Below are positions 51 to 16,255 of a stretch of DNA of 33,225 nt, piece after piece. The DNA lies in assembly GCA_023246195.1 (NCBI GenBank), contig JAHFIW010000015.1, positions 1 through 33,225 on the forward strand, read 5' to 3'. The translations under genes and the position numbers were made by a program. The stretch is from a bacterium. GTDB lineage: Bacteria > Patescibacteriota > Patescibacteriia > SG8-24. The notes under the pieces were generated by a model, which was not told where the DNA came from, made no database searches, and worked only from the letters and a program-made list of their open reading frames with translations. Within the stretch, counting starts at the first letter, position 1, and each line of letters opens with the position of its first letter.

Positions 51-1190
51 ATGGGAATGAAGGAAACAGGCGAATTGCGTGGACGCGACGGGTTGCGAGA
101 AGGGCCGGATGGCCATGATCGCGAGACAGGAGGCATAAATGAGTACGTGAGAGTTCTTTACAAAAGGCAGTCCGATCTCTTTCAGCAGGACGAAGCGCAG
201 CGACGCCGATATTTCGAGCGTCACCCGACGTTCTTTGCCTGCCTGAAGTGCATGGACGGCCGGGTCGAGTTTCCTACCATGACCAAAACCGCGCGCGGCC
301 TCGTAAAGCCGTATCGCGCGGTCGGCGGGAAGTTCGAACTGTTCTGGCCGGCCTTTCAGCGTTCGCTCGCCCTGTGGGTGAAGCAGGCCATCATGCATGA
401 CGCGCATTCCTGCATCTTCGTCAGCAGTCACTTCTGTTCCTTCCGGCGCGACCTCGGTTGCAAGGGATGGGACAACGATGCCGAGGCGGCAATGTGCCAC
501 ATGCAGAAACTCTCGAGCCAGATGACCGAGGATTTCGGCGAGCAGCTGGTGGCCATTCCGACCAGCGTCGACACGTCATGCGACAACCTCATCCTGCACG
601 GGCCGGAAGGGCACGTCGTTTCCGGTGACACCCTTCGCGGCAAGGACATCGACGCGATTCGCGACGAGATCGGACTGGTCTTTCCGACCATGCCGCCGCA
701 GGTCGTCCGGGACCTGACGCCGTTCCTTCTTGGCAACGCCGAACGCGTCGCTGAAATCAAGGCCAACCCGAGAAACGTCCGCGAGATGGAGCACGACGAG
801 AGGGTCATCGCCCTCGGAGAAGGCTTTGACGGATTGGCCGCGGAGAACTTCGCCTTCATGAACAGCGATGTCAACCCGAATCTCGACTCGGCCGTCGTCA
901 TGGCCGCGAAGATGATTGAGCGAAAGGTGGACGTGGGCATGCGCCGCGAACAGGCGACGATCTTCACGAACATCTTCTACGGGGGCAGACGCGGCATCCT
1001 GAGCAGCCTGCCCGGCATGGACAAGAAATGCGCAGTTCGGCGCTCGCGCGGCCTTCAGGAGTTCGCGCAGATGCACATTCGAGAGCATTGCCCCGAGCTT
1101 TGGAGGTCGGGCCGCCTGCATTTCCTGACGGGCATTACCCGCGAACCGACTCGCGAGCTCGAAGTCATCGAGGAAGGAAAAGTCAGCTAG
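51..1190 (+). CDS. CsoSCA-like carbonic anhydrase family protein (probable)
   Basis: A 379-residue soluble protein with no signal peptide. Residues 67-71 read CMDGR, followed by H127 and C137 in a Cys-rich stretch (SSHFCS, then GCKGWDND). A C-x-D-x-R dyad with a later His and Cys is the layout of beta-type carbonic anhydrases, in particular the carboxysome shell type CsoSCA, which would make C67, H127 and C137 zinc ligands and D69/R71 the dyad. There are no carboxysome or RuBisCO genes here, so a carboxysome role is not implied; bicarbonate supply or a different zinc chemistry is possible. The ATG at 51 has AAGGAG at 40-45. The first 30 residues look unconserved, and a second strong Shine-Dalgarno before an out-of-frame ATG at 139 makes the N-terminus uncertain. 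A terminator follows. The family call rests on motif memory, not alignment. Confidence 0.5.
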   Translation: MGMKETGELRGRDGLREGPDGHDRETGGINEYVRVLYKRQSDLFQQDEAQRRRYFERHPTFFACLKCMDGRVEFPTMTKTARGLVKPYRAVGGKFELFWPAFQRSLALWVKQAIMHDAHSCIFVSSHFCSFRRDLGCKGWDNDAEAAMCHMQKLSSQMTEDFGEQLVAIPTSVDTSCDNLILHGPEGHVVSGDTLRGKDIDAIRDEIGLVFPTMPPQVVRDLTPFLLGNAERVAEIKANPRNVREMEHDERVIALGEGFDGLAAENFAFMNSDVNPNLDSAVVMAAKMIERKVDVGMRREQATIFTNIFYGGRRGILSSLPGMDKKCAVRRSRGLQEFAQMHIREHCPELWRSGRLHFLTGITREPTRELEVIEEGKVS

Positions 1191-1307: not shown

Positions 1308-2000
1308 ATGACGAAGAACACGAGTGATCCCGTGACGGCGCTTCGGACGACCTTGGAGCCGCACCTTGCGCGAATCGACGTCTTCAGCGAGACCGGTCAC
1401 GAACGGGTATTCGATACGCTGATCGATGCGGCGCGGAGCATCTCCGACCGTCTCGAAGACAACAAACCGTACCTCTTCGACGACGGCGGCGATACGCGAC
1501 CGTACGGCCAATCCGTCTCTGCGCTGAATGCGCTGTTCAGCGGCTATGGAGAATGGGGCGAGGTGCCCATGTCGTTTGCCAAGCCGTACGAAAAGCCGAA
1601 TTGGATGGATGCTCGCGGCTATGACGAGAGCATCATCAAGAGCTACGACGATACTCTCGCCGTGCTCATCCGTGAACGGCTCAACGGGAAATTCATGGCG
1701 GAATATCCGCGCTACCGTTTCGTCCGCGCGGCGCTCGACATGACGTTCGAACGACGGATCTGCCGGGCATTCGACGGTTCCAGGCTGCTGCCCCATGTCG
1801 TCGCGGAACAGGTCGAGGAGAACGTCCTCGAAACGCTCGCCTACGGCCTGACCCTCGTTCTTGGCAAGTCGCCTCGCGAGAGGTTGATGCAGTCCGAGTC
1901 GCTGGCGAAACTCGCCGAGACGTTCACCTGCGTCATTCCCGTCGGCAAGACGCCGACCAACGTCGCCGTCTATCGCCGCATGCTCGTGCTCGTCGCCTAG
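1308..2000 (+). CDS. Hypothetical protein, 230 residues
   Basis: Not recognised. The start is well supported: AAAGGAG at 1295-1301 and ATG at 1308, with a good promoter upstream and a terminator 15 bases after the stop. The product is soluble, without signal peptide or membrane segment, and looks mostly helical, with a Tyr/Trp/Asp-rich middle (residues about 70-110). No catalytic motif was seen. It is a single-gene transcription unit convergent with the Ehr-like operon, so its context says nothing about function. Confidence 0.75.
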   Translation: MTKNTSDPVTALRTTLEPHLARIDVFSETGHERVFDTLIDAARSISDRLEDNKPYLFDDGGDTRPYGQSVSALNALFSGYGEWGEVPMSFAKPYEKPNWMDARGYDESIIKSYDDTLAVLIRERLNGKFMAEYPRYRFVRAALDMTFERRICRAFDGSRLLPHVVAEQVEENVLETLAYGLTLVLGKSPRERLMQSESLAKLAETFTCVIPVGKTPTNVAVYRRMLVLVA

Positions 2001-2055: not shown

Positions 2056-3609
2056 TTACATGTCCGTGCCGCTGTAGGACAGGTCCAGGCTTTTGTTGCA
2101 TAGCGGGAAGTCGGGAACGATGTTGCCAGGTCCGATTTCGCCGAACAGCGCCCAGTTGCAGAAGGACGGATCGCGCGGCATGCAGCGATCGATGCGTCCG
2201 CTCTTGATGCGCAGCGCGCACAGGATCTCACCGCGCCAGGATTCGACTGCTCCCAGGGCGATGCCGTCCTTTGCGTGGCATTCGGCACGGATCGGCCCGG
2301 CGGGCATGGTCGCAGTCAATTCGGCGATCAGCCGTGAGGAATCCTCGAGTTCGCGCACGCGCGCGATGAAGCGGGCGTAGACGTCACCGGACCGTTCCTC
2401 TACCAGGGTCGGTCGGAATGCGGCGTAGGCGGCGTAAGGGTGCGTGAGGCGTACGTCGCGGCCGATGCCGGAGGCGCGGGCAGGAAGGCCCTTCGCGCCG
2501 AGGGCGAGCGCGCCTTCCCTGGAAAGCACGCCGGTCGTCTCGAGGCGTTCGCGTTCACCGTCGGAAGAGAGGCACATGGCGAGGAATGACCGCATCTCCG
2601 CGTCGGCCTCCTTGATGACGAGCGCAATTTCCCTTAACGCCTCATCTTTCAGGTCAGCCGCCAGACCTCCCGGCACGATGGCTCCGCGCCAAAAGCGGTT
2701 GCCGAAGAGCTTGGCCGAAAGGCGCACCAGGCGTTCCTTGATGCGGAAGCCGTTGGCCGCCATCACGGTGTAGCCGGTGCCATTGCCGGCGATATTGGCC
2801 AGGTCATGCATGTGCATGCTGACACGTTCAAGTTCGCACAGCAGGCTGCGGGAAGCTTCGGCACGTTCGGGTACGCGACATCCGGCGATGGACTCGACCG
2901 CCTGGCAAAACGCAAGCGCGTTCGAGACGGACATGTCGCCGGACAAACGCTCGATGAACGGCAGGGCTTCGGTCGGCGTCTTGCCCTCGAGCAGCTTCTC
3001 GACGCCCTTGTGCGTGAAGAACAGCTTGCCTTCGAGGGTGATGATGCGCTCCCCTGCCACGTTGAATCGGAAATGGCCGGGCTCGATGACGCCGGCATGA
3101 ATGGGGCCGACGGGAATTTCGTAGACGCCTTCTCCTTCCACATGGTGCATGGGATACGGCACGTCGGCGTGAGCGAGCTTGGTATTCCAAGCGAAGTCCT
3201 TACGCAAAGGATGCGTGCCTTCCGGTACGTTTTCATGATGCACAAGCCGTCGCGGATCCGGATGGCCTTCGGCGACGATGCCGAACATGTCCATGGCGTA
3301 GCGTTCGTACCAGTGGGCAGCGACGACCTTGGCCGTCACTGAGGGATAACGCGGAGCGTCCTCGGGCAGCTTTGCGGAGAGCATCAGCCATCCGTGCGCC
3401 TCATCGAGCGCGAACGCGACGTGGACGCCGAAACTGCCGTCGGTCTCGCGGTCATCAGTGGCGTAGAGGAGGGACAGCGGCAGGCCATTTTCGGAGAGCA
3501 GCGCGCAGGCATCCGCCAACTTTTCCGGCGCGATTGCCGCCAGCGTCAAGCCGTTCCTGGTTTCGCCGACCTGACCTCCTGCCAGGTCGATGTAGTCGTG
3601 GGTGGTCAT
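2056..3609 (-). CDS. Ehr-type catalytic-subunit homologue (HyfG/HycE-like), NiFe ligands lost
   Basis: A 517-residue fusion of a NuoC-like domain (about 1-140) and a NuoD/NiFe large-subunit domain (about 155-517), the same architecture as HycE and HyfG. Landmarks: the NuoC segment HWYERYAMDMFG, IHAGVIEPGHFRF near 170, and VPERA at 246-250. In active group 4 NiFe hydrogenases the metal is held by ERICGIC and DPCxSC. Here these read ERLSGDM (S223, M226) and DLSYSGTDM (S511, G514), so all four ligands are gone although the surrounding alignment is good. The protein also ends at TDM, where HycE has a tail that is removed during maturation. It cannot bind a NiFe centre in the known way. This is the hallmark of energy-converting-hydrogenase-related (Ehr) complexes, whose function is unknown. 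Last gene of the operon, 3 bases after the HyfF-like gene. Confidence 0.88.
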   Translation of the reverse strand: MTTHDYIDLAGGQVGETRNGLTLAAIAPEKLADACALLSENGLPLSLLYATDDRETDGSFGVHVAFALDEAHGWLMLSAKLPEDAPRYPSVTAKVVAAHWYERYAMDMFGIVAEGHPDPRRLVHHENVPEGTHPLRKDFAWNTKLAHADVPYPMHHVEGEGVYEIPVGPIHAGVIEPGHFRFNVAGERIITLEGKLFFTHKGVEKLLEGKTPTEALPFIERLSGDMSVSNALAFCQAVESIAGCRVPERAEASRSLLCELERVSMHMHDLANIAGNGTGYTVMAANGFRIKERLVRLSAKLFGNRFWRGAIVPGGLAADLKDEALREIALVIKEADAEMRSFLAMCLSSDGERERLETTGVLSREGALALGAKGLPARASGIGRDVRLTHPYAAYAAFRPTLVEERSGDVYARFIARVRELEDSSRLIAELTATMPAGPIRAECHAKDGIALGAVESWRGEILCALRIKSGRIDRCMPRDPSFCNWALFGEIGPGNIVPDFPLCNKSLDLSYSGTDM

Positions 3610-3612
3610 AGG

Positions 3613-5085
3613 CTACCGGGTAAGGTTTCGGGACAGCGTCATGAAGAAGTCGCGGCCGGGGGCGTTCAGCAGTGCGAATCCGAGCGCGAAACACAGGATG
3701 ATGCCGATGAGCATGGCGACGTTCGCCAGGTTCCAACGTTCGCTGCCGGTAGCATGCGTCCGCGGTTCGGCCGTCTCTGACGAGAAAAGCATCTCGATCG
3801 CCGATCGCATCATGCCAAAGCCGATCATTACCAGCAGCGCTAGAATGATGACCGTGAGCAGCGGCTGGCGTGTCAGGCCGTACGACGTCATGATGTACTC
3901 GCTCATGAACAGGGCTGAAGGCGGTGCCGCGAGCAGTGCCAACAGGCCGATGAAGAACAGTACGCCGGTCTTCGGCCGACGTTCGACGACGCCTCGCACG
4001 TCGGCAATGCGCGTAGACCCGTACTCGTGCAGCATTTCGCCTGCGCCGACGAAGAGCGCCGGTTTGGCCAAGGCGTGTCCTGCCATGTGCATCATCGCCG
4101 CGAAGGTGCCCAACGGTCCGAGGCCGACCGCAAAAGCCATCAGTCCCATGTGTTCCACGGAAGAATAAGCCAGCATGCGCTTGTAGTTTTTCTGTACCAG
4201 CATGATGAACGACGGCAGCGCTACCGAAAGCGTGCCGAAAGTCAGGAAGAACGTATCGGTCCAGCCGGATGATCCCGAGGCGGCATCGACGATCAGCTTG
4301 GCGCGAAGCAGCACCGCAAAGGCGACGTTGAGGAGGATGCCGGAAAGCATCGCGGAAATCGGCGAAGGAGTCTTGCTGTGCGCGTCCGGAAGCCAGGTGT
4401 GCATCGGCACGAAGCCCACCTTGGTACCGACGCCGATGAACAGGAAGACGAATGCCCAACGCAGCGTGTCGAGCGACAGCGAGCCGGCGTATGCCGACAG
4501 CGACGACAGGGTGAGCGCGCCGGCACCAAGGTTCGCGCCGACGGCCGAATGGATGAGCATGAGCACGCCGAGCAGTCCGAGGGTGATGCCCGTGGAACAG
4601 ATGACGATGTATTTCCACGCGGCCTCCACTGCGCCGCGAGAACGGTCAAAAGCTACCAGCAGGGTGGTGGTCAGCGTCGTGGATTCGAGGGCGATCCAGA
4701 GCAGCGCCAAGTTGTCGGCGGCGACCGCCGTCCACATGGACAGTACGAACAGCATGAAGAACAGGATGAACGTCTTTTCGTTGGCCGGAGTGATAGTCCC
4801 CTTTTTTTGGCCGTGCGCCAGATAGTGGGTTGCGGCCAACGAGGCGAGCGCGGCGACGATCGCCACGAGACTGATCATGTAGGAGGCGAAGCGGTCGACC
4901 CGAACCGGTCCCCAGGCGGATGGCGTGCCGGAGAGCAATACGGGAACGGCGACGAACGCGGCGGCGGTGCACGAAAGCAGCGCGCCAAACAGGAAGTTGC
5001 GGCGGCGGGCGGCGCTGCTGATCGGCAGGAACGCCGCGGCGGCGGAAGCGAGGGCGAGGAAGAAAGGAAACAGTGGATGCGACAT
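3613..5085 (-). CDS. Antiporter-like membrane subunit (HyfF/NuoN-like)
   Basis: A 490-residue protein with about 13-14 hydrophobic helices, of the proton-conducting transporter (Mrp/NuoL/M/N) family. The two residues that define the channel are present: E134 in LLWIALESTT (helix 5) and K222 in GVGTKVGFVPMHTWLPDAH (helix 7). H229 in the same loop is also conserved. Where HyfB has a Lys in the next broken helix, this protein has Asn (SGILLN), which is usual for HyfF-type subunits. Expected to carry H+ or Na+ through the membrane arm. It starts 1 base downstream of the HyfE-like stop codon, so translation is probably coupled. Confidence 0.88.
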   Translation of the reverse strand: MSHPLFPFFLALASAAAAFLPISSAARRRNFLFGALLSCTAAAFVAVPVLLSGTPSAWGPVRVDRFASYMISLVAIVAALASLAATHYLAHGQKKGTITPANEKTFILFFMLFVLSMWTAVAADNLALLWIALESTTLTTTLLVAFDRSRGAVEAAWKYIVICSTGITLGLLGVLMLIHSAVGANLGAGALTLSSLSAYAGSLSLDTLRWAFVFLFIGVGTKVGFVPMHTWLPDAHSKTPSPISAMLSGILLNVAFAVLLRAKLIVDAASGSSGWTDTFFLTFGTLSVALPSFIMLVQKNYKRMLAYSSVEHMGLMAFAVGLGPLGTFAAMMHMAGHALAKPALFVGAGEMLHEYGSTRIADVRGVVERRPKTGVLFFIGLLALLAAPPSALFMSEYIMTSYGLTRQPLLTVIILALLVMIGFGMMRSAIEMLFSSETAEPRTHATGSERWNLANVAMLIGIILCFALGFALLNAPGRDFFMTLSRNLTR

Positions 5086-5086
5086 A

Positions 5087-5737
5087 TCAATCCGTAAGTT
5101 CGTTCAGGGCCTGCGTGTTTTCCGTGCCGTACAGCTCGCGGACGCGGCCGCTGACCGTGCCCATCAGCACGATGCCGAACGTCAGCGTCATGAGGATTCC
5201 CAGCTCGACCAAGAAGGGCAGGTCGCGGATGACGGCGAAGGAGAACGCGGCAATGCCGTTTTCCATCACCAGGAAGCCCATCACCTGCGAGAGCAGGTCG
5301 CGGCGCAGCACCATCATGGCCAAACCGATCATGACCATGGCGACGGCGACAAGCAGGAGGTATTCCGGATCCGCTCCGGCGGCGAAGGGAGAACGCAGCG
5401 CCATTGCCGTGACCACCGTGATGAGTACGGTGATGACGATGTAGGTGGGCGCCGGACGGAGCGTGGATGAAAGACGCATGGACATGCCTGCGCGATCAGC
5501 CGCGCGGGTGATGACTGCGGGGATGATGAGCGCCTTGAGGGCGATGGCGGTCGCCGCGAGCAGGTAGAGTTCCGGCGCATTGCGTTCGAAGGCCAGTCCT
5601 GCGACGAAGAGTCCGAGAAAGAGGGCCGAGGCCGCATAGGATCGCACGAGCGTGTGAAAACGCAGCGCCCCTGCCGCACGGATGGATGTTGCCAGCGTAG
5701 CGCCGGCCAGAATGGCGTTGATGAGCGTGATGTGCAT
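5087..5737 (-). CDS. HyfE-like membrane subunit (NuoK-related)
   Basis: A 216-residue protein with six or seven hydrophobic segments. The C-terminal part carries QVMGFLVMENGI with E159, matching the membrane glutamate of NuoK (E36 helix), and K68 sits in a helix (ALKALIIP). HyfE proteins supply the NuoK-like ion path linking the NuoH-like subunit to the antiporter subunits. Length matches E. coli HyfE (about 216). It lies between the HyfC-like and HyfF-like genes, as in hyf operons. No frame or length anomaly. Confidence 0.85.
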   Translation of the reverse strand: MHITLINAILAGATLATSIRAAGALRFHTLVRSYAASALFLGLFVAGLAFERNAPELYLLAATAIALKALIIPAVITRAADRAGMSMRLSSTLRPAPTYIVITVLITVVTAMALRSPFAAGADPEYLLLVAVAMVMIGLAMMVLRRDLLSQVMGFLVMENGIAAFSFAVIRDLPFLVELGILMTLTFGIVLMGTVSGRVRELYGTENTQALNELTD

Positions 5738-5743
5738 AAGGGT

Positions 5744-6676
5744 TCAGGCGAGCGCGAGTATCAGGCCGGCGAGAGCCGTCAGGAAGGCGATGGTCATGTA
5801 TTCCTGCATGCGATAAAACCGCATTTTTGCCATCGATGATTCCAGAAGCGCAAGCAGCCCCATCGCGGCGCAGAGCTTGAATACCGTGCTGGCGATGATC
5901 ATGAGCATTGCCGAAACTCCCGAATCGACTGTCATGAGCGGCATGGGAATGATGATGTTGGCGAACAGTATCGCGAACAGCGTGAGTTTGAGTGACGAGG
6001 CATACTCGAGCATGGCCAGATACGGACCGGAGTATTCCAGCACCATCGCCTCGTGCACCATGGTAAGTTCAAGATGCGTTGCCGGATTATCGACGGGATA
6101 CCGCGCGTTTTCGGACAGTGCCACGAAAACGAAAGCGATCAGGCTAAGCAGCAGGCCAGGATGCCGCAACAGTCCCATGCCGGTCACGGAAAGCATTTTG
6201 GCGACAGTGCCGCTGCCACTGGTCACGGCGAAAGCCGCGAAGACGGCGATGATCGACGGTTCCACCAGCGCGACCAGCGTCATTTCGCGGCTGGCACCCA
6301 TGCCACCGAAGGCGCTGCCCGGATCGAGTCCTCCGAGCACCAGGAATACCGCGCCGAGCGCGAGCAGTCCGGCGACTACGATAAAGTCGCCGCTCGCCGA
6401 AAGCGCTCCGTCAACGGAGGTCAACGGGAGAAGCAGCGCCACGAGCGCGGTGCTCGCCAGTACCGCGTACGGAGCCAGGCGAAACACCCACGAGACCGTT
6501 GGCGAAATGACCATTTCTTTCCTGAGGAGCGTGGCGTAAGTGACATACGGAAGAAGCGGCGACGCGCCGTGCCTGCCCTGCAATCGAGCCTTGCACCAGC
6601 GGACAAGTCCGGTAGCGAACGGGGCTAGAGCCAGGATGACCGCTCCCTGGATGACGGTGAGGAGGATGGGCGTCAT
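5744..6676 (-). CDS. NuoH-like membrane subunit (HyfC/HycD-like)
   Basis: A 310-residue protein with about eight membrane helices, related to NuoH. It keeps the charged loop and helix residues of the family: E131 in FGGMGASREM, E139 in ALVEP, E189 in SENARYPVDNP, and E203, E209 and E214 in HLELTMVHEAMVLEYSG. These line the funnel that links the peripheral arm to ion transfer. I chose the ATG at 6676 because it overlaps the upstream stop as ATGA; an in-frame ATG at 6688 would add four residues (MHRH). The loops that contact the redox subunits look intact even though those subunits have lost their cofactors. Confidence 0.87.
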   Translation of the reverse strand: MTPILLTVIQGAVILALAPFATGLVRWCKARLQGRHGASPLLPYVTYATLLRKEMVISPTVSWVFRLAPYAVLASTALVALLLPLTSVDGALSASGDFIVVAGLLALGAVFLVLGGLDPGSAFGGMGASREMTLVALVEPSIIAVFAAFAVTSGSGTVAKMLSVTGMGLLRHPGLLLSLIAFVFVALSENARYPVDNPATHLELTMVHEAMVLEYSGPYLAMLEYASSLKLTLFAILFANIIIPMPLMTVDSGVSAMLMIIASTVFKLCAAMGLLALLESSMAKMRFYRMQEYMTIAFLTALAGLILALA

Positions 6677-8670
6677 ATGGCGATGCACAGCGTTGCGGCA
6701 AGCGCGACGAGGATGAACAGGAGATAGAGCTGGATCGACCCGCTTTGGACGCGGCGGGCCCAGTTGCCCAAACCGTGAAACCCGCGCGAGATCGGTTCGT
6801 GCACGTGCGATTCCCAGAATGAGCGGCCGGTGAGCAGCATTTCGCGCTTCAGCAAAAAGGAATTTCCCTTAGTCGTAGGAATGGTCACGACGGTCTTGCG
6901 GACGCCGACGAGGTTACGGAAAAAGAAACGGATGGGCGCGCTGAAGGCCGTAGCCGTGTATTCCATGTGCGCGTTGATCGGCTGTCCGCAGTTCCACGTT
7001 TGGTAGACGCGTTCCTTGGACGGCCGCGAGAGGAACCGTTTGGCAATGAGGCTGAGAAGCAGCGTGCCAAAGACGGCCAGAGCGAGGACCAGCGGCGAGA
7101 GGGACGTTCCCCTGCCAGTGACGATGGTTTCGGAAGACATCGTGCCGTTCATGATGAGGCTTCCCAGTCCGAGTACGCCGAGGATTTGCGAGGCGAACGC
7201 TCCGGTGAGCGCAGCCAACGCGGCGAGGACGATGACCGGCAGCCGAATCGCGTCGTTCGGCTCATGGGCGGCTTCCGCTGCGGCCGAGCGTGACGCGCCC
7301 AACTGCGAAATGGAGAACAGCTTGACCATGGCAAAGACCGCGATGCCGGCAGTAAAGGCGGTGCCGACGAGGGCGAGTACGAGAACTGCCTGCGTCGCCG
7401 GCGCGATGCCGTGCAACGATGCCACGAGCCCGGAAAGATACATCCATTCGCCGATGAAGCCGGCAAATGGCGGCAGTGCGGCTCCTGCGAGCGCCAAAAC
7501 GAGGAATGCGCCGGAGAAGGTCGGCATGCGCTTTGCGAGGCCTCCCATGCGCTCAAGGCTGCGCGTATGCACGGCGTGCGCGATGGCGCCAGCGCTCAAG
7601 AACAGGCCGGACTTGAAGATGGCGTGCGCGATGCAGTGAAATAGCGCTGCGGCAAAGGCCACGGCAGCGAGAGCATGGAGTCCTTGTCCTCGCGCATACA
7701 GGCTGGTGCCAAGCATGAGGAAAATCAATCCGAGGTTTTCCACGCTGCTCCAGGCCAAGGTGCGCTTGATGTCAGTATCAACGGCGGCATGAAGCGCGCC
7801 GAAGACCGCGGAAATCAGGCCAATGCCCATGACCGTAAGCGCTGCGGCGGCAGGAAGCGACGGGATGATGAGAAAAGCGCACAGGATGAAACCGTAGACG
7901 GCCACCTTGAGCATGACGCCGGACATGAGCGCACTCACGTGGCTCGGCGCCTGCGGATGCGCTTCGGGCAACCAGGTGTGGAGCGGCACGAGACCGGCCT
8001 TGGACCCGAAGCCGACGAAGAAGAATGCGAACGCGAGTGTCGCCTCGCGCAGGGGCATGGTGCGGGCATTGGCGGCCAGGGCGGCGAAGTCAGCCAGCGG
8101 GTTGCCGGCGGCAAGCAGCAGGAATCCTGCCATGAGCGAGAGCGCGCCAAGGTGCGCCATGACGAAGTAGAGCATGGCTGCCTTGCGCGAGGCCGTGCTG
8201 CGGTCCGCCATTACCAGCGTAAAAGACGATAGGGACATGATTTCCCATGACACCATGAATCCCAGTGCCGAGGTTGCCAGAAGCGTGGCCTGCATGCCGA
8301 AGATGAACAGCGCGGTGACGCCATGCAGGCTCGGTACATCGTAGGCGTCGCGATTCTCGTCGACATAACGCATGGCATAGATGGCCGCGATGCAGGCCAC
8401 CAGGTTCACCACGACGAAGAACGGCGCCGCCAGGGGGGTCAGTCGGAAGGTGACGCCAAAGGAGGCGATGACTGGAAGCAGCGGGACAGCCCCCGTCTTC
8501 AGCGTCATGGAGGCCATGGCGGAAAGTGCCCCGATCCCCGTACCTATGACGAGGAAACCGTTGGAGAGGCGCCTCAAAAGGCCCTTTCGAAGGAGGAAGG
8601 CCAAGGGAAAAGCGATGAACGTGGCGACAAGACAGGCGGTCAGCCCCGCCTGGATCAAGGAAAGTTGCAT
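6673..8670 (-). CDS. Antiporter-like membrane subunit (HyfB/NuoL-like)
   Basis: A 665-residue protein with about 15-16 membrane helices, second Mrp/NuoL-type subunit of the complex. Channel residues are present: E143 in VSWEIMSLSS, K224 in GSKAGLVPLHTWLPEAH, H231 and K255 in SGVMLK. The C-terminal part has the HyfB signature TWNCGQP followed by YTATAFSAPIRFFF and a final helix. With the HyfF-like gene this gives two antiporter modules, as in hydrogenase-4. Stop and next start overlap by 4 bases. It starts 3 bases after the small-subunit stop. Confidence 0.88.
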   Translation of the reverse strand: MQLSLIQAGLTACLVATFIAFPLAFLLRKGLLRRLSNGFLVIGTGIGALSAMASMTLKTGAVPLLPVIASFGVTFRLTPLAAPFFVVVNLVACIAAIYAMRYVDENRDAYDVPSLHGVTALFIFGMQATLLATSALGFMVSWEIMSLSSFTLVMADRSTASRKAAMLYFVMAHLGALSLMAGFLLLAAGNPLADFAALAANARTMPLREATLAFAFFFVGFGSKAGLVPLHTWLPEAHPQAPSHVSALMSGVMLKVAVYGFILCAFLIIPSLPAAAALTVMGIGLISAVFGALHAAVDTDIKRTLAWSSVENLGLIFLMLGTSLYARGQGLHALAAVAFAAALFHCIAHAIFKSGLFLSAGAIAHAVHTRSLERMGGLAKRMPTFSGAFLVLALAGAALPPFAGFIGEWMYLSGLVASLHGIAPATQAVLVLALVGTAFTAGIAVFAMVKLFSISQLGASRSAAAEAAHEPNDAIRLPVIVLAALAALTGAFASQILGVLGLGSLIMNGTMSSETIVTGRGTSLSPLVLALAVFGTLLLSLIAKRFLSRPSKERVYQTWNCGQPINAHMEYTATAFSAPIRFFFRNLVGVRKTVVTIPTTKGNSFLLKREMLLTGRSFWESHVHEPISRGFHGLGNWARRVQSGSIQLYLLFILVALAATLCIAI

Positions 8671-8673
8671 ACG

Positions 8674-9222
8674 TCAGAATCGTTTGGAGCCGGCTGCCTC
8701 GCGTATGGCGTGAAGGACGCCACGAAGAATGTCGGTCGGAGATGGGGGGTCTCCTGGAATCTTTATGTGGACCGGAATGACTGATTCGACCGGTCCGACG
8801 ACGGCGTAGGAATCCTTCCAGATGCCGCCGGTACAGGCGCCGTCTCCTACCGCCACGACGATGCACGGATGCGGCGCGGCCTCGTAGGTGGTTTTGACCG
8901 CGCGTTCCAAGTTGCGCGTCACCGGTCCGGTGACGAAGAGCATGTCGGCATGCCGAGGAGAGGCCACGAACGACAGGCCAAAGCGATCGATGTCGTAGTA
9001 GGCGTTGCCAATGGCGGTCAGTTCGATTTCTTCGGCATTGGTGGAGCCTCCGTCGACGGCACGTATGCGCAATGAGCGCCCTCCGTAGAGTTTCTTGACC
9101 GTCTCGCCGAGCTCCTTGCCCACGTTTTCAAATTCGGCGTCTCTCGCGGAGAGGAAGGCGCTGGCCGGTTCAGTGACTCTCGGACCAAAAAAAAGTTCCC
9201 CCCACAGCTTCGTCAGGTACAT
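8674..9222 (-). CDS. Small-subunit homologue (HyfI/HycG/NuoB-like), Fe-S ligands lost
   Basis: A 182-residue protein that aligns by eye with HycG, HyfI and NuoB over residues 50-170. In this family four cysteines bind the proximal [4Fe-4S] cluster (N2 in complex I). Here the canonical GSCNGCxIE reads GSTNAEEIE (T61 and E64 for the two Cys), the GDC position reads GDG (G128), and GCPP reads GDPP (D158). All four are lost while the flanking residues remain. C130, two residues after the third position, and C120 are the only nearby cysteines and cannot replace the set. The fold is probably kept as a scaffold joining the large subunit to the membrane arm. First gene of the operon. Confidence 0.87.
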   Translation of the reverse strand: MYLTKLWGELFFGPRVTEPASAFLSARDAEFENVGKELGETVKKLYGGRSLRIRAVDGGSTNAEEIELTAIGNAYYDIDRFGLSFVASPRHADMLFVTGPVTRNLERAVKTTYEAAPHPCIVVAVGDGACTGGIWKDSYAVVGPVESVIPVHIKIPGDPPSPTDILRGVLHAIREAAGSKRF

Positions 9223-9345: not shown

Positions 9346-9783
9346 CTAGCCTGACGGCAGGTGCCGGTTTTTGCCGAAGTGCTTGCGGGCCACGCGGGCG
9401 CGCGCCAATTCGCGTTCCAGCGCGGCTATGGCGCTTGCGGCGGAAACATCGTCGTTGCTGCGTTTTTCGGCCAGGACTTTCTCGGCACGTTCGCGGGCGG
9501 CCTCGACCTTTTCGAGATCGAGTTCTTCTGCGCGCTCGGCAGTGTCGGCCAAGATGATGATCTTGGAGCCGGGTTGCACCTCGACGAACCCGCCGGAGAC
9601 GGCCAGGTAGGATTCCTCCCTGCCCTTGCGGAGGGTGATCATGCCGGGAACCAAGTTAGCCACCAGCGGCAGGTGTCCGGGCAATACCGTAATCTCCCCT
9701 TCCTGGGTAGGAACGGTCGCGGCATCGTATTCTTCCTTGAGGACGATGCGCTCGGGAGTGGTGAGTTCGAAGTGGAGTGACAT
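9346..9783 (-). CDS. atpC: ATP synthase epsilon subunit
   Basis: A 145-residue F1 epsilon subunit. The N-terminal beta-sandwich is clear (FELTTPERIVLKEEYDAATVPT, GEITVLPGHLPLV), followed by a charged C-terminal helical hairpin from about residue 90. It belongs to the central stalk and can inhibit ATP hydrolysis. It follows atpD by 1 base and is the last gene of the operon. Length is typical (about 130-145). Confidence 0.96.
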   Translation of the reverse strand: MSLHFELTTPERIVLKEEYDAATVPTQEGEITVLPGHLPLVANLVPGMITLRKGREESYLAVSGGFVEVQPGSKIIILADTAERAEELDLEKVEAARERAEKVLAEKRSNDDVSAASAIAALERELARARVARKHFGKNRHLPSG

Positions 9784-9784
9784 A

Positions 9785-12087
<2,303 letters not shown>

Positions 12088-12099
12088 ACCCCTAAGTCA

Positions 12100-13605
12100 T
12101 CAACCGTTAATCTTCTTGTACTCGGCAACCGCCTCTTCGATTCGCATCTTAGTGTCATCCGACAAGTCCGTCTCTTTTTCGATGGTATCGACGATGTCGC
12201 GGCGGGTCTTGCCGAGGTAGTCGCGGAAGCCGGCTTCGAAGGCGCTGATCTTCTCTACGGCGACGTCGTCAAGCTTTCCGGCGATGAGCGCGTAAAGGAT
12301 GGTGGTCTGCGAAGCGAGCGACAACGGCGCATACTGGCCCTGCTTGAGCAGTTCGGCAGCACGGCGGCCGCGCTCGATCTGCTTGCGAGTGGTCTCGTCG
12401 AGGTCGGAGGCGAACTGGGCGAAGGCCTCGAGTTCGCGGAACTGGGCCATTTCGAGACGCAGCTTGCCTGCCACGCGCTTCATGGCCTTGGTCTGCGCGG
12501 ACGAACCGACGCGCGACACCGAGATGCCGACGTTGACTGCCGGGCGGACGCCCTTGTTGAAGAGGTCGCCTTCAAGGAAAATCTGGCCGTCGGTAATGGA
12601 AATGACGTTGGTGGGAATGTAGGCGGAGACGTCACCGGACTGCGTCTCGATGATTGGCAGCGAGGTGATGGAGCCTCCCCCGTTCTCCTTGTTGAGACGG
12701 GCGGAGCGTTCAAGCAAACGGGAGTGCAGGTAAAAGACGTCGCCGGGGTAGGCTTCGCGACCCGGCGGGCGGCGAAGCAGCAACGAGACTTCGCGGTAGG
12801 CCCAAGCGTGCTTGGAAAGGTCGTCGTACACGACGAGCACGTCCTCGCCCTTGGCCATGAAGTACTCGGCAATGGCCGTGCCGGAGTACGGAGCCAAGTA
12901 AGTCATCGAGGCGGGATCAGAAGCGCCCGCCATGACGATGACGGTGTGCTCCATTGCGCCAGCAGCTTCGAGACGGCCGAGAATCTGAGCGATCTTGGAC
13001 TCCTTTTGACCGATGGCCACGTAAACGCACTTCACGCCCTTGCCTTTCTGGTTGATGATGGTGTCGATGGCGATGGTGGTCTTGCCGGTCTGGCGGTCGC
13101 CGATGATGAGCTCGCGCTGGCCCTTGCCGATCGGGATCATCGAATCGATGGCCTTGATGCCGGTCATCAGCGGCTGATTGACGCCCTGGCGGGTAATGAC
13201 GCCAGGTGCGACCCTGTCGACCGGCATCACGGTCTTGTCACCGCCGATTTCGCCCTTGCCGTCGAGCGCCTCGCCAAGCGGGCTGACGACGCGTCCGATG
13301 ATCTTTTCTGAAACCGGAATCGAAAGCACTCGGCCGGTGGACTTCACCTGGTCGCCTGCCTTGATGTGCGTGTAATCGCCGAGCAGCATCGCGCCGACGG
13401 ATTGCTCTTCGAGGTTGAGGATTACGCCAACGGTGCCGCCGGGAAATTCAAGCATTTCCGCGGTCAATGCGTCGGTCAGTCCGGACATGCGGGCGATGCC
13501 GTCGGCAATCTCCACGATGGTACCGGTCTTGTCGGCCGCGGCGCCGGTGCCGAGGTGCTGGATTTCTTGTTTCAGCGCTTCGATGATGGATGATTTTGAG
13601 GCCAT
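12100..13605 (-). CDS. atpA: ATP synthase alpha subunit
   Basis: A 501-residue non-catalytic nucleotide-binding subunit of F1. Walker A is GDRQTGKT at 169-176, and the arginine-finger region [15 protein letters not shown] is present. Length is normal. It follows atpH by 10 bases. The minus-strand bases before its ATG read TTTCCTCCTGATC, the opposite of a Shine-Dalgarno, so initiation must rely on coupling to atpH or another route. Confidence 0.98.
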
Positions 13606-13615
13606 AAGGATATGA

Positions 13616-14023
13616 TCAGGAGGAAACGGTGCGAGTCAGGACGTTCTTCAGGTCGTCGAGCGTGTGGCGAACGGTGGCATCGATGACGCGGTCCTCGGTG
13701 CGGATACGGATGCCGCCGACCAGGTCGGGCACCACCTTGCGAACCACTTCGCGGCCCTTGGAGGAGATGCCTGCCGCGGCCAGCGCTTCGGCTTCACGCG
13801 CGTCGTCAATCGGCGAGGCCGTCTCTACCGTGATGCGCGTGCGGCTGTCGATGTCCTCCATGACTTCGGGCAGCGAGGCTAGCGCGTCATGCAGCATCGA
13901 CTCGAGTCCGTGCCGCCCGATGACGGCCACGAAGTTGGCTATCAGCGGCTTCAGCTCGTCTGCCGTGGCATTTTTGGTTGCCAGGTAGAGGGCGCGTGCA
14001 AGTTCTTTAGGGGAAGTTTTCAT
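13616..14023 (-). CDS. atpH: ATP synthase delta subunit (short)
   Basis: A 135-residue delta (OSCP-like) subunit by position and by its C-terminal half ([30 protein letters not shown]), which matches the conserved end of the family. The usual length is about 175-180 residues, so the N-terminal helical domain that binds alpha is shortened. Short delta subunits occur in reduced bacteria. The frame is intact. It joins F1 to the b-subunit stalk. Confidence 0.9.
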
Positions 14024-14047
14024 ACGACTAAGTTGATTTCCACCGCC

Positions 14048-14593
14048 TTATGCGGCTCCTTCCGCGCTCGCGACGTCCTTAATGGCCTTGGCAATGAGTC
14101 CGGCGTCGATGCTGGCGTCAATCTTGCCCTTGAGCACCTTTTCTGCGGCCATGGCCACTAACGTGCCGACCTCGGCTTTTGCTTCGGCCATCATCTTGTC
14201 TTTTTCCGCGCGAATCTGTTCGCGGCCCTGGTCAACGACTTTTTGCACCTCAGCTCTGGTGCGAGCGGCCGCTTCGACCCGCTCCTTCTCTGCCAGGATG
14301 GTGGCAGCATCCATGATCTCTTTGGCGCTCTTGCGAGCCTCGGTCACGATGTTGGCACGATCAGCCTCGGCCAACGTGCGGGATTGCGACGAGGCCAGCG
14401 CGTCCTTGATCCCCTGTTCTATCTTGGCTGCGCGATCGTCCATGATCTTGAGCAGCGGCTTGTAGGCGAACTTCCAGAGCACCAGCAAGATCAGGCCGAA
14501 GTTGACCAGCTGCGCGACGAACAGTTTCCAGTTGATGCCGAGCGTGCCGAGCACGTCGGTCGATGCGGCGACTTGTTGAACTTCGGTGACCAT
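14048..14593 (-). CDS. atpF: ATP synthase b subunit
   Basis: A 181-residue peripheral stalk subunit. One membrane helix at about 22-44 (WKLFVAQLVNFGLILLVLWK) is followed by a long charged coiled coil (about 50-165) rich in Ala, Glu, Lys and Arg. It has about 20 residues before the membrane helix, somewhat more than E. coli b. It lies 25 bases before atpH and 103 bases after atpE. No Shine-Dalgarno is visible. Confidence 0.95.
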   Translation of the reverse strand: MVTEVQQVAASTDVLGTLGINWKLFVAQLVNFGLILLVLWKFAYKPLLKIMDDRAAKIEQGIKDALASSQSRTLAEADRANIVTEARKSAKEIMDAATILAEKERVEAAARTRAEVQKVVDQGREQIRAEKDKMMAEAKAEVGTLVAMAAEKVLKGKIDASIDAGLIAKAIKDVASAEGAA

Positions 14594-14645
14594 AGCGGGA
14601 GATGCAAAGGGTGAAATGCGAAGCGTGGAGATCGGAGAGGAAAGC

Positions 14646-14672
14646 TGGAGCGCAGTTGTCGACGACGCTCCA
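14646..14672 (-). other. Hairpin in the atpE-atpF gap
   Basis: TGGAGCG (14646-14652) and CGCTCCA (14666-14672) form a 7-bp stem with a 13-base loop in the 103-base gap after atpE. No T run follows, so it is not a plain terminator. A stem here could protect the 3' end of an atpE-containing fragment or lower atpF expression relative to the c subunit. Confidence 0.45.
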
Positions 14673-14696
14673 ACCTTCTTACTCCGAACTTCACTC

Positions 14697-14915
14697 TTAC
14701 AGGGTGAAGACGACGACGAGCGAGTAAATGGCGATGGCTTCAGCGAAGGCGGCGCCGAGCAGCATCGGAACGAACAGCTTGCCGGTCGATTCCGGATTGC
14801 GGCCGATCGACTCCATGGCCTTAGCGACGATTTGACCGATGGCCAAGGCCGGGGTCATGCCGCCGATCGCCATGGTGAGACCTTTGGTAAGGATCTTGAT
14901 TGCTTCCGGGCTCAT
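14697..14915 (-). CDS. atpE: ATP synthase c subunit
   Basis: A 72-residue hairpin of two membrane helices that forms the rotor ring. The ion-binding carboxylate is E59 in AAFAEAIAIYSLV, and the polar loop is ESIGRNPE (35-42). The sodium-type set (a Gln in helix 1 and Glu-Ser/Thr in helix 2) is not present: helix 2 reads AEAIA, and the Gln at 28 is one turn off the sodium position. Proton coupling is predicted. The helix 1 glycine repeat is partly replaced (MTPALAIG). Gaps of 139 and 103 bases with hairpins flank this gene, unlike the rest of the operon. Confidence 0.95.
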   Translation of the reverse strand: MSPEAIKILTKGLTMAIGGMTPALAIGQIVAKAMESIGRNPESTGKLFVPMLLGAAFAEAIAIYSLVVVFTL

Positions 14916-15026
14916 ACGAATGGTGAAGCGTTCAGGTCGACTGGAGGGGAGTTTAAAGTCGCCTACTTCGGCTTCGGTTAAGGGTGAGGTTCGAAGTCCG
15001 CCGCATGAAAACGGAGCGGGCGTCGA

Positions 15027-15043
15027 ACCGTTGCCTCAACGGT
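15027..15043 (-). other. Hairpin between atpB and atpE
   Basis: ACCGTTG (15027-15033) and CAACGGT (15037-15043) form a perfect 7-bp stem with a 3-base loop in the 139-base gap before atpE. It starts 11 bases past the atpB stop. Without a T run it is more likely an RNA stability or processing element than a terminator. Confidence 0.5.
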
Positions 15044-15054
15044 CATCCTGCGGG

Positions 15055-15954
15055 CTATATGCCCGGCAGGGCTTCGTTCAGGTCCGGCTTTCCTTGGGCG
15101 ATGCCGTGCGCTTCGCCGAGTACGTCTTCCTCATGCTTGTGCTCGTCACCATGCGGCGCGTCGGTCGCAAGGACCAAGTACACCAGCGTGAGCATCGAGA
15201 ACACCAGGGCCTGGACCACGCCTACGATGATCTCCAGGAACATGAACGGCGTCGGCAGCAGGAAAGCCATCAGGGAAGACAAGACGTGAATCAGCACTTC
15301 GCCGGCAAAGATGTTGCCGAACAGGCGGAGCGCGAGCGAGACCATCTTGGCAGCTTCCGACATGAGCTCGATCAGGCCGACCATCAATCCGATGACGGCC
15401 GTGAATACCCCGACGGCGTACTCGCCGACGGGTTGCGTGCCGATTTTGGAAACGGCCTTCCAGAAAGTGCCCAGTTGGATGAACTTATTCCAATATTTGA
15501 AGAAGCCGACGGTCATCACGCCGATGACATGCGAGGCGATGACTACCGCGATGCTCATGGCAAAAGTCATGTTGAGGTCGCTGGTGGCGGGGCGAAACAG
15601 CGGAATCAGTTCCTTCCCTTCCCCCGTCATGCCCCACAGGCCGATGGTGCCTACGCCGGGCAACAGACCGAACCAGTTGGAAAGCAAGATGAACGGAAAC
15701 AGCGCCCCGACGATCGGCAGGAAACGGCGCGAACGCGCGCGTTCGTGCGTGACCTGATCCATGAAGGAGAGCATGCCTTCAAGAACGTATTCCGCGACGT
15801 TCTGTACCCCCTTCGGTACCTCGGCGACGGTGCGAGAAATGACGGCACTCAACATCACCAGTACCGCAACGACTACCCAGCCGGTGAGCAGGGAATTGGT
15901 GACGGGCAGGGCCCCGAGGGAAAACAGTTTTTCTGCGGCAACCGGAATCGACAT
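15055..15954 (-). CDS. atpB: ATP synthase a subunit
   Basis: A 299-residue membrane subunit that forms the ion half-channels. The essential arginine is R210 in LALRLFGNIFAGE. About six hydrophobic segments are present. The start MSIPVAAEKL at 15954 lies 4 bases after the atpI stop; longer in-frame readings run into atpI and are unlikely. The C-terminus carries an approximately 35-residue His/Glu/Asp-rich tail after the last helix (APHGDEHKHEED onward), longer than in E. coli. Confidence 0.95.
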   Translation of the reverse strand: MSIPVAAEKLFSLGALPVTNSLLTGWVVVAVLVMLSAVISRTVAEVPKGVQNVAEYVLEGMLSFMDQVTHERARSRRFLPIVGALFPFILLSNWFGLLPGVGTIGLWGMTGEGKELIPLFRPATSDLNMTFAMSIAVVIASHVIGVMTVGFFKYWNKFIQLGTFWKAVSKIGTQPVGEYAVGVFTAVIGLMVGLIELMSEAAKMVSLALRLFGNIFAGEVLIHVLSSLMAFLLPTPFMFLEIIVGVVQALVFSMLTLVYLVLATDAPHGDEHKHEEDVLGEAHGIAQGKPDLNEALPGI

Positions 15955-15958
15955 ACTG

Positions 15959-16255
15959 CTAACGATTCGCTTCCTTATGAGCCTCTTCTTCCTCGCCGAG
16001 CGCCTCGTACTCGCGACCGAAGTCGCGCGATCTCTTGTTGATGAAGGTCGCGGTGATGATCGCGGCAATGACGAATCCCGCGATGCGCAAGTAGGGCGCG
16101 GTGCCGTACATGTCGTCCAGCTTCTTTCCCGTCATTGCCAGAACCACTACCGGAATGGCAATGGAAGCGCCGAATTCCCCCATGATCCTAAAAGCAAGAA
16201 GAACGTAACGGCGGTCAGTGCTGCTGCGAGAAGTGGGTTTTTGAACCGAATCCAT
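15959..16255 (-). CDS. AtpI/AtpZ-like F0 assembly protein
   Basis: A 98-residue protein with two membrane helices (about 28-42 and 56-73), a basic start and an acidic tail (GEEEEAHKEANR), placed first in the ATP synthase operon. Small two-helix proteins at this position (AtpI, AtpZ, gene 1) help c-ring assembly or cation transport. The start MDSVQKP at 16255 is chosen because a longer reading would begin at a TTG upstream of the operon promoter. No Shine-Dalgarno is seen. Confidence 0.75.
   Translation of the reverse strand: MDSVQKPTSRSSTDRRYVLLAFRIMGEFGASIAIPVVVLAMTGKKLDDMYGTAPYLRIAGFVIAAIITATFINKRSRDFGREYEALGEEEEAHKEANR

Follow-up and report, generated by a model that had tools for sequence, protein, structure and literature searches.

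Genomic locus and subunit composition

The stretch of DNA considered here (hereafter, the window) comprises 33,225 nucleotides of a bacterium of the Patescibacteriota and corresponds to one contig (C18) of a 1.17 Mb draft genome, which is 98% complete and distributed over 47 contigs. Between positions 2056 and 9222, six genes that all lie on the minus strand encode a membrane complex related to the energy-converting hydrogenase-related (Ehr) complexes and to respiratory complex I. Sequence comparisons strongly support the view that this complex has an intact ion path and no remaining redox centres, and that its hydrogenase-like peripheral arm is maintained by selection. The genes are read from the small subunit to the large subunit, which closes the operon at position 2056:

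8674-9222, minus strand: small subunit, NuoB/HyfI/MbhJ-like, 182 amino acids (Pfam PF01058; PDB alignment to MbhJ, E=2.5e-28)
6673-8670, minus strand: HyfB/NuoL-like antiporter subunit, 665 amino acids
5744-6688, minus strand: HyfC/NuoH-like subunit, 314 amino acids
5087-5737, minus strand: HyfE/NuoK-like subunit, 216 amino acids
3613-5085, minus strand: HyfF/NuoN-like antiporter subunit, 490 amino acids
2056-3609, minus strand: fused NuoCD/HyfG-like large subunit, 517 amino acids

The coordinates and gene identities given in an earlier note, made from the sequence alone, agree with the results of Pfam, PDB and subunit alignments. Compared with the Hyf operon of E. coli, HyfA, HyfD and HyfH are missing. 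Homologues of the complex are found in public contigs labelled Uhrbacteria, Moranbacteria, Peregrinibacteria and other Patescibacteria, which places the source among the Candidate Phyla Radiation (CPR), bacteria of very small size that depend on a host. The six genes are complete in dozens of lineages, with a patchy distribution within the class (28 of 380 genomes). According to a tree of the large subunit, the CPR copies can be grouped into clade A, which is approximately 55-70% identical to the window copy, and clade B, with approximately 40% identity. The genome and contig catalogue sets used for these surveys overlap, so that small-subunit counts are based on distinct sequences and the other counts may hold a few duplicates.

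Loss of the metal centres in the peripheral arm

The small subunit of this superfamily carries the proximal [4Fe-4S] cluster, known as N2 in complex I and as G1 in formate hydrogenlyase (PMC9474812). In the window copy, the four ligand positions of this cluster, the only one of the subunit, are occupied by T61, E64, G128 and D158. The loss extends to the whole family, since at most one of the four ligand cysteines is present in 60 of 64 distinct small subunits (none in clade A and no more than one in clade B). All four are present in the remaining 4 sequences. Three of these are CPR copies (L164, L165 and L167) paired with large subunits in which the RICGxC motif is intact, and they are apparently true hydrogenases; the fourth comes from a Nitrospirota contig (L076) whose large subunit is devoid of the NiFe cysteines. 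Regarding the replacement residues, E64 and G128 are near-invariant in clade A, while the position of D158 is near-invariant across both clades, with D in nearly all small subunits and N or E in the rest. Clade B mostly shows C at the second ligand position and D at the third. The fold of the subunit is preserved: the AlphaFold model has a predicted local distance difference test (pLDDT) value of 86.5, and its best Foldseek matches are HycG (7z0s_G), MbhJ (6cfw_J) and NuoB homologues of complex I. No earlier report of this cluster loss was found in the literature searched.

In the large subunit of the window, all four NiFe-ligand cysteines are replaced (S223, M226, S511 and G514), so that RLSGDM stands in place of the RxCGxC motif and DLSYSG in place of the C-terminal DPCxxC. 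Almost all large-subunit homologues have zero cysteines at these positions, which are occupied by S (rarely C, T or A) at 223, by M, S, A or T at 226, by S (rarely G) at 511 and by G at 514; S223 and S511 are near-invariant across clades A and B. The same holds for two acidic residues, D225, within the former NiFe loop, and D480, which are V and A in the Nitrospirota homologue. The new carboxylates, which occupy the former metal sites or lie close to them, are replacements under constraint.

The proton path of the peripheral arm, as described for formate hydrogenlyase (PMC9474812), is mostly kept. Its residues E193, H284, E437, R478 and R395 correspond to E176, H266, E420, R459 and R378 in the window, and all of them are invariant or near-invariant (R378 being R or K).

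Ion path of the membrane arm

Residues of the ion path were scored by alignment with Hyf and Nuo of E. coli and with approximately 40 orthologues. In the HyfB-like subunit, E143 and K224 are each conserved in 40 of 40 sequences and align with E144/K234 of NuoM and E144/K229 of NuoL. The HyfF-like subunit has E134 (40/40) and K222 (39/40), whose counterparts in NuoN are E133 and K217, and the HyfE-like subunit has E159 (37/38), equivalent to E159 of HyfE. The acidic residues E135, E143, D200, E207, E213 and E218 of the NuoH-like subunit are present in 39-40 of 40 sequences. Further conserved residues are K255, H349, K353 and E408 in the HyfB-like subunit, H337, K341 and E396 in the HyfF-like subunit, and K68 and E178 in the HyfE-like subunit. 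These data make a strong case for a predicted ion path that is intact throughout the membrane arm. The residues named for these four subunits in the earlier note are thus all present, and they are conserved across the relatives. Its general statement that the ion-translocating machinery was kept while the redox parts were gone is well founded, and the present data extend it to the family-wide loss of the proximal cluster ligands, with the proton path of the arm mostly kept.

Order of the losses and selection on the complex

In the large-subunit tree, the Nitrospirota homologue and CPR clades A and B form one fully supported group, within which the former is sister to A+B (support values of 100/100 and 90/85); long branches and a midpoint root leave moderate confidence in this topology. 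Because the Nitrospirota copy, which has lost the NiFe site and kept the four cluster cysteines, is sister to the CPR clades, the tree suggests a stepwise process in which the NiFe site would have been lost first and the [4Fe-4S] cluster second.

Redox-free members of the family are also present in contigs labelled Acidobacteriota (L058 and L062, from metagenome-assembled genomes, MAGs, of Acidobacteria) and Micavibrio (L075, also a MAG), which may represent transfers or mis-binned CPR contigs. In addition, the large subunits of L045 and L050 are 99% identical, compared with 81-93% for the remaining subunits, which suggests that part of the operon has recombined or been transferred.

The loss of all redox ligands and the patchy distribution within the class would fit a decaying hydrogenase remnant devoid of function. 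However, in close pairs with unsaturated synonymous sites, the ratio of nonsynonymous to synonymous substitution rates (dN/dS) is approximately 0.03-0.17 for all six genes, far below 1 in every subunit, and is usually lowest in the small subunit. Compared with the window copy, small subunits are mostly 70-80% identical and the two antiporter-like subunits approximately 40-50%. Purifying selection acts on every subunit, and the operon is not decaying. Together with the retention of the six genes in dozens of lineages, the conservation of the replacement residues and the maintained linkage to the ATP synthase described below, this leaves the remnant explanation with hardly any probability.

Search for redox partners

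The absence of a HyfA/HyfH ferredoxin-like gene from the window, claimed in the earlier note, is borne out by the absence of the ferredoxin motif CxxCxxCxxxC from all of its open reading frames (ORFs). The motif is equally absent from all complex-bearing loci, except for one spurious reading frame, and the related loci encode no flavin or ferredoxin-like subunit. The kind of partner that, according to the earlier note, would refute its view (a ferredoxin-type or flavin subunit, or another redox protein) was sought around the copies of the complex and found near none of them. A 95-amino-acid ORF between the large and small subunit genes of the Nitrospirota homologue was considered as a ferredoxin candidate and found not to be one. 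At the genome level, searches for hydrogenase maturation, ferredoxin and quinone synthesis genes returned neither HypD (other hyp genes were not searched genome-wide) nor UbiA, and the NuoF-type 51 kDa flavoprotein subunit was not found either; as these are single-family searches on a draft in 47 contigs, the absences are likely, not certain. The only 2[4Fe-4S] ferredoxin of the genome is encoded away from the locus, on contig C43, within a 2-oxoacid:ferredoxin oxidoreductase-like cluster. The genome nevertheless encodes a hydrogenase: a distinct NiFe enzyme of group-3b-like type, whose cysteine motifs are intact, lies on contig C25, and the G+C content of this contig matches that of the window. 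Its large subunit (L078) spans positions 303-1604 on the plus strand of this 6.2 kb contig, beside a DUF6390 gene whose tail faintly resembles HypC. This enzyme is present although HypD was not found in the 98% complete genome.

The ferredoxin and the group-3b-like hydrogenase indicate that low-potential electrons exist in the cell. This would be consistent with a complex that still transfers electrons via a cofactor or partner that the sequence does not reveal, such as a flavin, a non-cysteine Fe-S centre or an external oxidoreductase on the membrane arm. Nevertheless, such a role is improbable in view of the near-complete loss of the cluster cysteines, of the lack of ferredoxin motifs in the loci and of NuoF and UbiA in the genome, and of the residues found at the quinone-site His and Tyr positions of complex I, which are I175 and G224 in the large subunit.

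Linkage to the ATP synthase and other neighbouring genes

Two further features of the window lie close to the complex:

9346-15990, minus strand: F-type ATP synthase genes atpC, D, G, A, H, F, c subunit and B, immediately upstream of the complex
51-1190, plus strand: CsoSCA-type beta-carbonic anhydrase homologue, 379 amino acids (hmmsearch against PDB 2fgy, E=1.5e-12; AlphaFold and Foldseek)

The gap between the ATP synthase genes and the small-subunit gene is approximately 120 bp. Counting those loci that extend 3 kb or more upstream of the operon, the ATP synthase genes immediately precede it in 24 of 32 from clade A and in 3 of 7 from clade B. The c subunit encoded in the window looks like an H+ type, with Glu followed by Ala and no Gln in helix 1, as judged by eye. 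The genes downstream of the complex vary, including a UvrD helicase, DUF4349 with ParA/ParB and others. A recurrent downstream neighbour of 971 amino acids was considered as a partner and turned out to be the UvrD helicase; as others are MreB, ParA and ParB, these neighbours reflect general synteny.

The carbonic anhydrase-like protein has no Pfam match in the window copy. The AlphaFold model of the product retrieves 8thm and 2fgy in Foldseek, with a template-modelling (TM) score of up to 0.69, and C67, D69, R71, H127 and C137 (C-x-D-G-R and H...C) are invariant in 11 homologues. This genuine CsoSCA relative might dock onto the complex, which would then form the membrane component of a vectorial carbonic anhydrase, with the gradient driving CO2 hydration. 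In line with this, the gene lies beside the complex in approximately 10 distinct loci, on either side and in both clades, and both co-occur above expectation (7 of 28 complex-bearing genomes against 30 of 352, Fisher p=0.012). However, three quarters of the complex-bearing genomes have no such gene and, in a control set of 20 CPR loci around it, most of which come from genomes lacking the complex, it directly follows atpC in ten, all of them with no complex nearby. Therefore, its link is to the ATP synthase: the protein is best described as an ATP-synthase neighbour, the idea of a specific partner of the complex was dropped, and a vectorial carbonic anhydrase is highly unlikely. More generally, this family directly follows atpC in many CPR genomes, as at L134-L136, L139-L143, L149 and L152. 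Between the carbonic anhydrase-like gene and the complex, a 230-amino-acid ORF (1308-2000, plus strand) finds no match in Pfam, and its single match in NCBIfam is not significant.

Functional interpretation

From the perspective of its function, the reading that we favour, to which we assign about an even chance, is that of a redox-cofactor-free derivative of Ehr complexes that acts as an ion translocator on the gradient of the ATP synthase and is gated via its rebuilt arm. The complex would move ions without electron transfer, within the gradient made or used by the ATP synthase, either as a secondary, Mrp-like H+/cation exchanger or as a gated H+ pathway. A carboxylate-rich pocket between the small and large subunits (E64, D158, D225, D480 and the E176 loop) could serve as a protonation- or ion-controlled gate, which would act on the connection that the NuoH-like subunit makes with the antiporter subunits. 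More tentatively, the arm may have been rebuilt as a coupling or catalytic module that relies on carboxylates instead of redox chemistry and, together with the F-ATP synthase, drives or gates the translocation of ions.

Several observations weigh against the translocator reading. The canopy Asp, strictly conserved in hydrogenases and complex I (D529 in HycE; PMC9474812), is D in the window and N in most relatives, and therefore the proton path is not conserved in full. The linkage to the ATP synthase is missing in 8 of 32 clade-A loci and 4 of 7 clade-B loci. A novel cofactor, such as a non-cysteine metal site or a flavin, would be compatible with the sequence. Finally, complex-bearing genomes show no depletion of PF00999 Na+/H+ exchangers (15 of 27, against 182 of 380; p=0.43), which led to the rejection of the complex as a plain replacement for ordinary exchangers; no PF00999 exchanger was found in the genome of the window itself. 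The proposal of the earlier note that the complex could be an H+ or Na+ antiporter or a gated leak is still conjectural, and this distribution test of the antiporter part is negative.

Alternatively, the pocket might form a new non-redox active or ligand site, for instance for a divalent metal or a small anion, whose chemistry or binding would drive ion movement in the membrane arm, comparable to the coupling of ion flux with CO2 hydration in DAB complexes. The replacement residues are near-invariant (E64 and G128 in clade A; D158, D225, D480, S223 and S511 in both clades), the small subunit is usually the slowest to evolve, and a redox-free link between NuoL-like and beta-carbonic anhydrase-like proteins is established for DAB2 (PMC13144422). 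Nevertheless, the second and third ligand positions of clade B are mostly C and D, respectively, so that the site differs across the family, and we consider this alternative rather doubtful.

For complex I, the main question still to be answered is how electrons passing through the peripheral arm set ions in motion in the membrane arm. If the arm has indeed been rebuilt as a redox-free coupling or catalytic module, this would be the first known case in the superfamily, within the literature searched, in which the hydrogenase-like arm is kept and every redox centre is lost. A natural arm with its linking loops and channels, but devoid of redox centres, would allow the ion-moving part to be studied free of redox chemistry. 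The annotation of energy metabolism in CPR/Patescibacteria would also change, as such genes readily receive the label hydrogenase or NADH dehydrogenase, neither of which is appropriate.

Comparison with known systems

The closest relatives of the complex are the Ehr proteins, with which it shares group-4-like large and small subunits, complex I/Mrp-like membrane subunits and an incomplete NiFe cysteine set. According to Jaffe et al. (2020, PMC7304191), CPR sequences form a monophyletic Ehr subclade in which the metal-binding cysteines of the large subunit are missing, and the family described here is most likely this clade. The loss of the large-subunit metal ligands in CPR was therefore already known from that source (PMC7304191), whose accessible text covers these ligands and H2 only; the loss of the small-subunit [4Fe-4S] ligands is a further point and a difference from Ehr, whose redox-coupled charge translocation would need this cluster. 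As published Ehr definitions rest on the missing NiFe ligands, the loss of the cluster says more about the mechanism than about how the complex should be named.

Group 4 [NiFe] hydrogenases contain two NiFe-binding CxxC motifs, neither of which is present here. Within this group, Hyf/Hyc provide the closest subunit matches (HyfB, HyfC, HyfE, HyfF, HyfG and HyfI) and share the fused NuoCD-type large subunit, the E/K/H ion path and the glutamate of the beta1-beta2 loop, whereas HyfA, HyfD, HyfH, the NiFe site and the proximal cluster are absent from the complex. The homology to complex I includes the NuoB, NuoCD, NuoH, NuoK-like and NuoL/M/N-like subunits, but the operon is devoid of NuoEFGI, of the N2 cluster and of the quinone-site His and Tyr, and NuoF and UbiA were not found in the genome.

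Mrp antiporters resemble the complex in their redox-free use of NuoL/M/N-type antiporter subunits, whose Glu in transmembrane helix 5 and Lys in transmembrane helix 7 are conserved here. To our knowledge, Mrp antiporters have no NuoB/NuoD/NuoH-type subunits, and the complex differs from them by its hydrogenase-like small and large subunits. Finally, in DAB, for which a pair of beta-carbonic anhydrase and NuoL-like proteins driven by the proton motive force is established (PMC13144422), a NuoL-like subunit is coupled redox-free to cytoplasmic chemistry, and a beta-carbonic anhydrase-like gene is also a neighbour here, but this neighbour matches CsoSCA_cat (PF20686-like) and shows no match to PF10070 (DabA).

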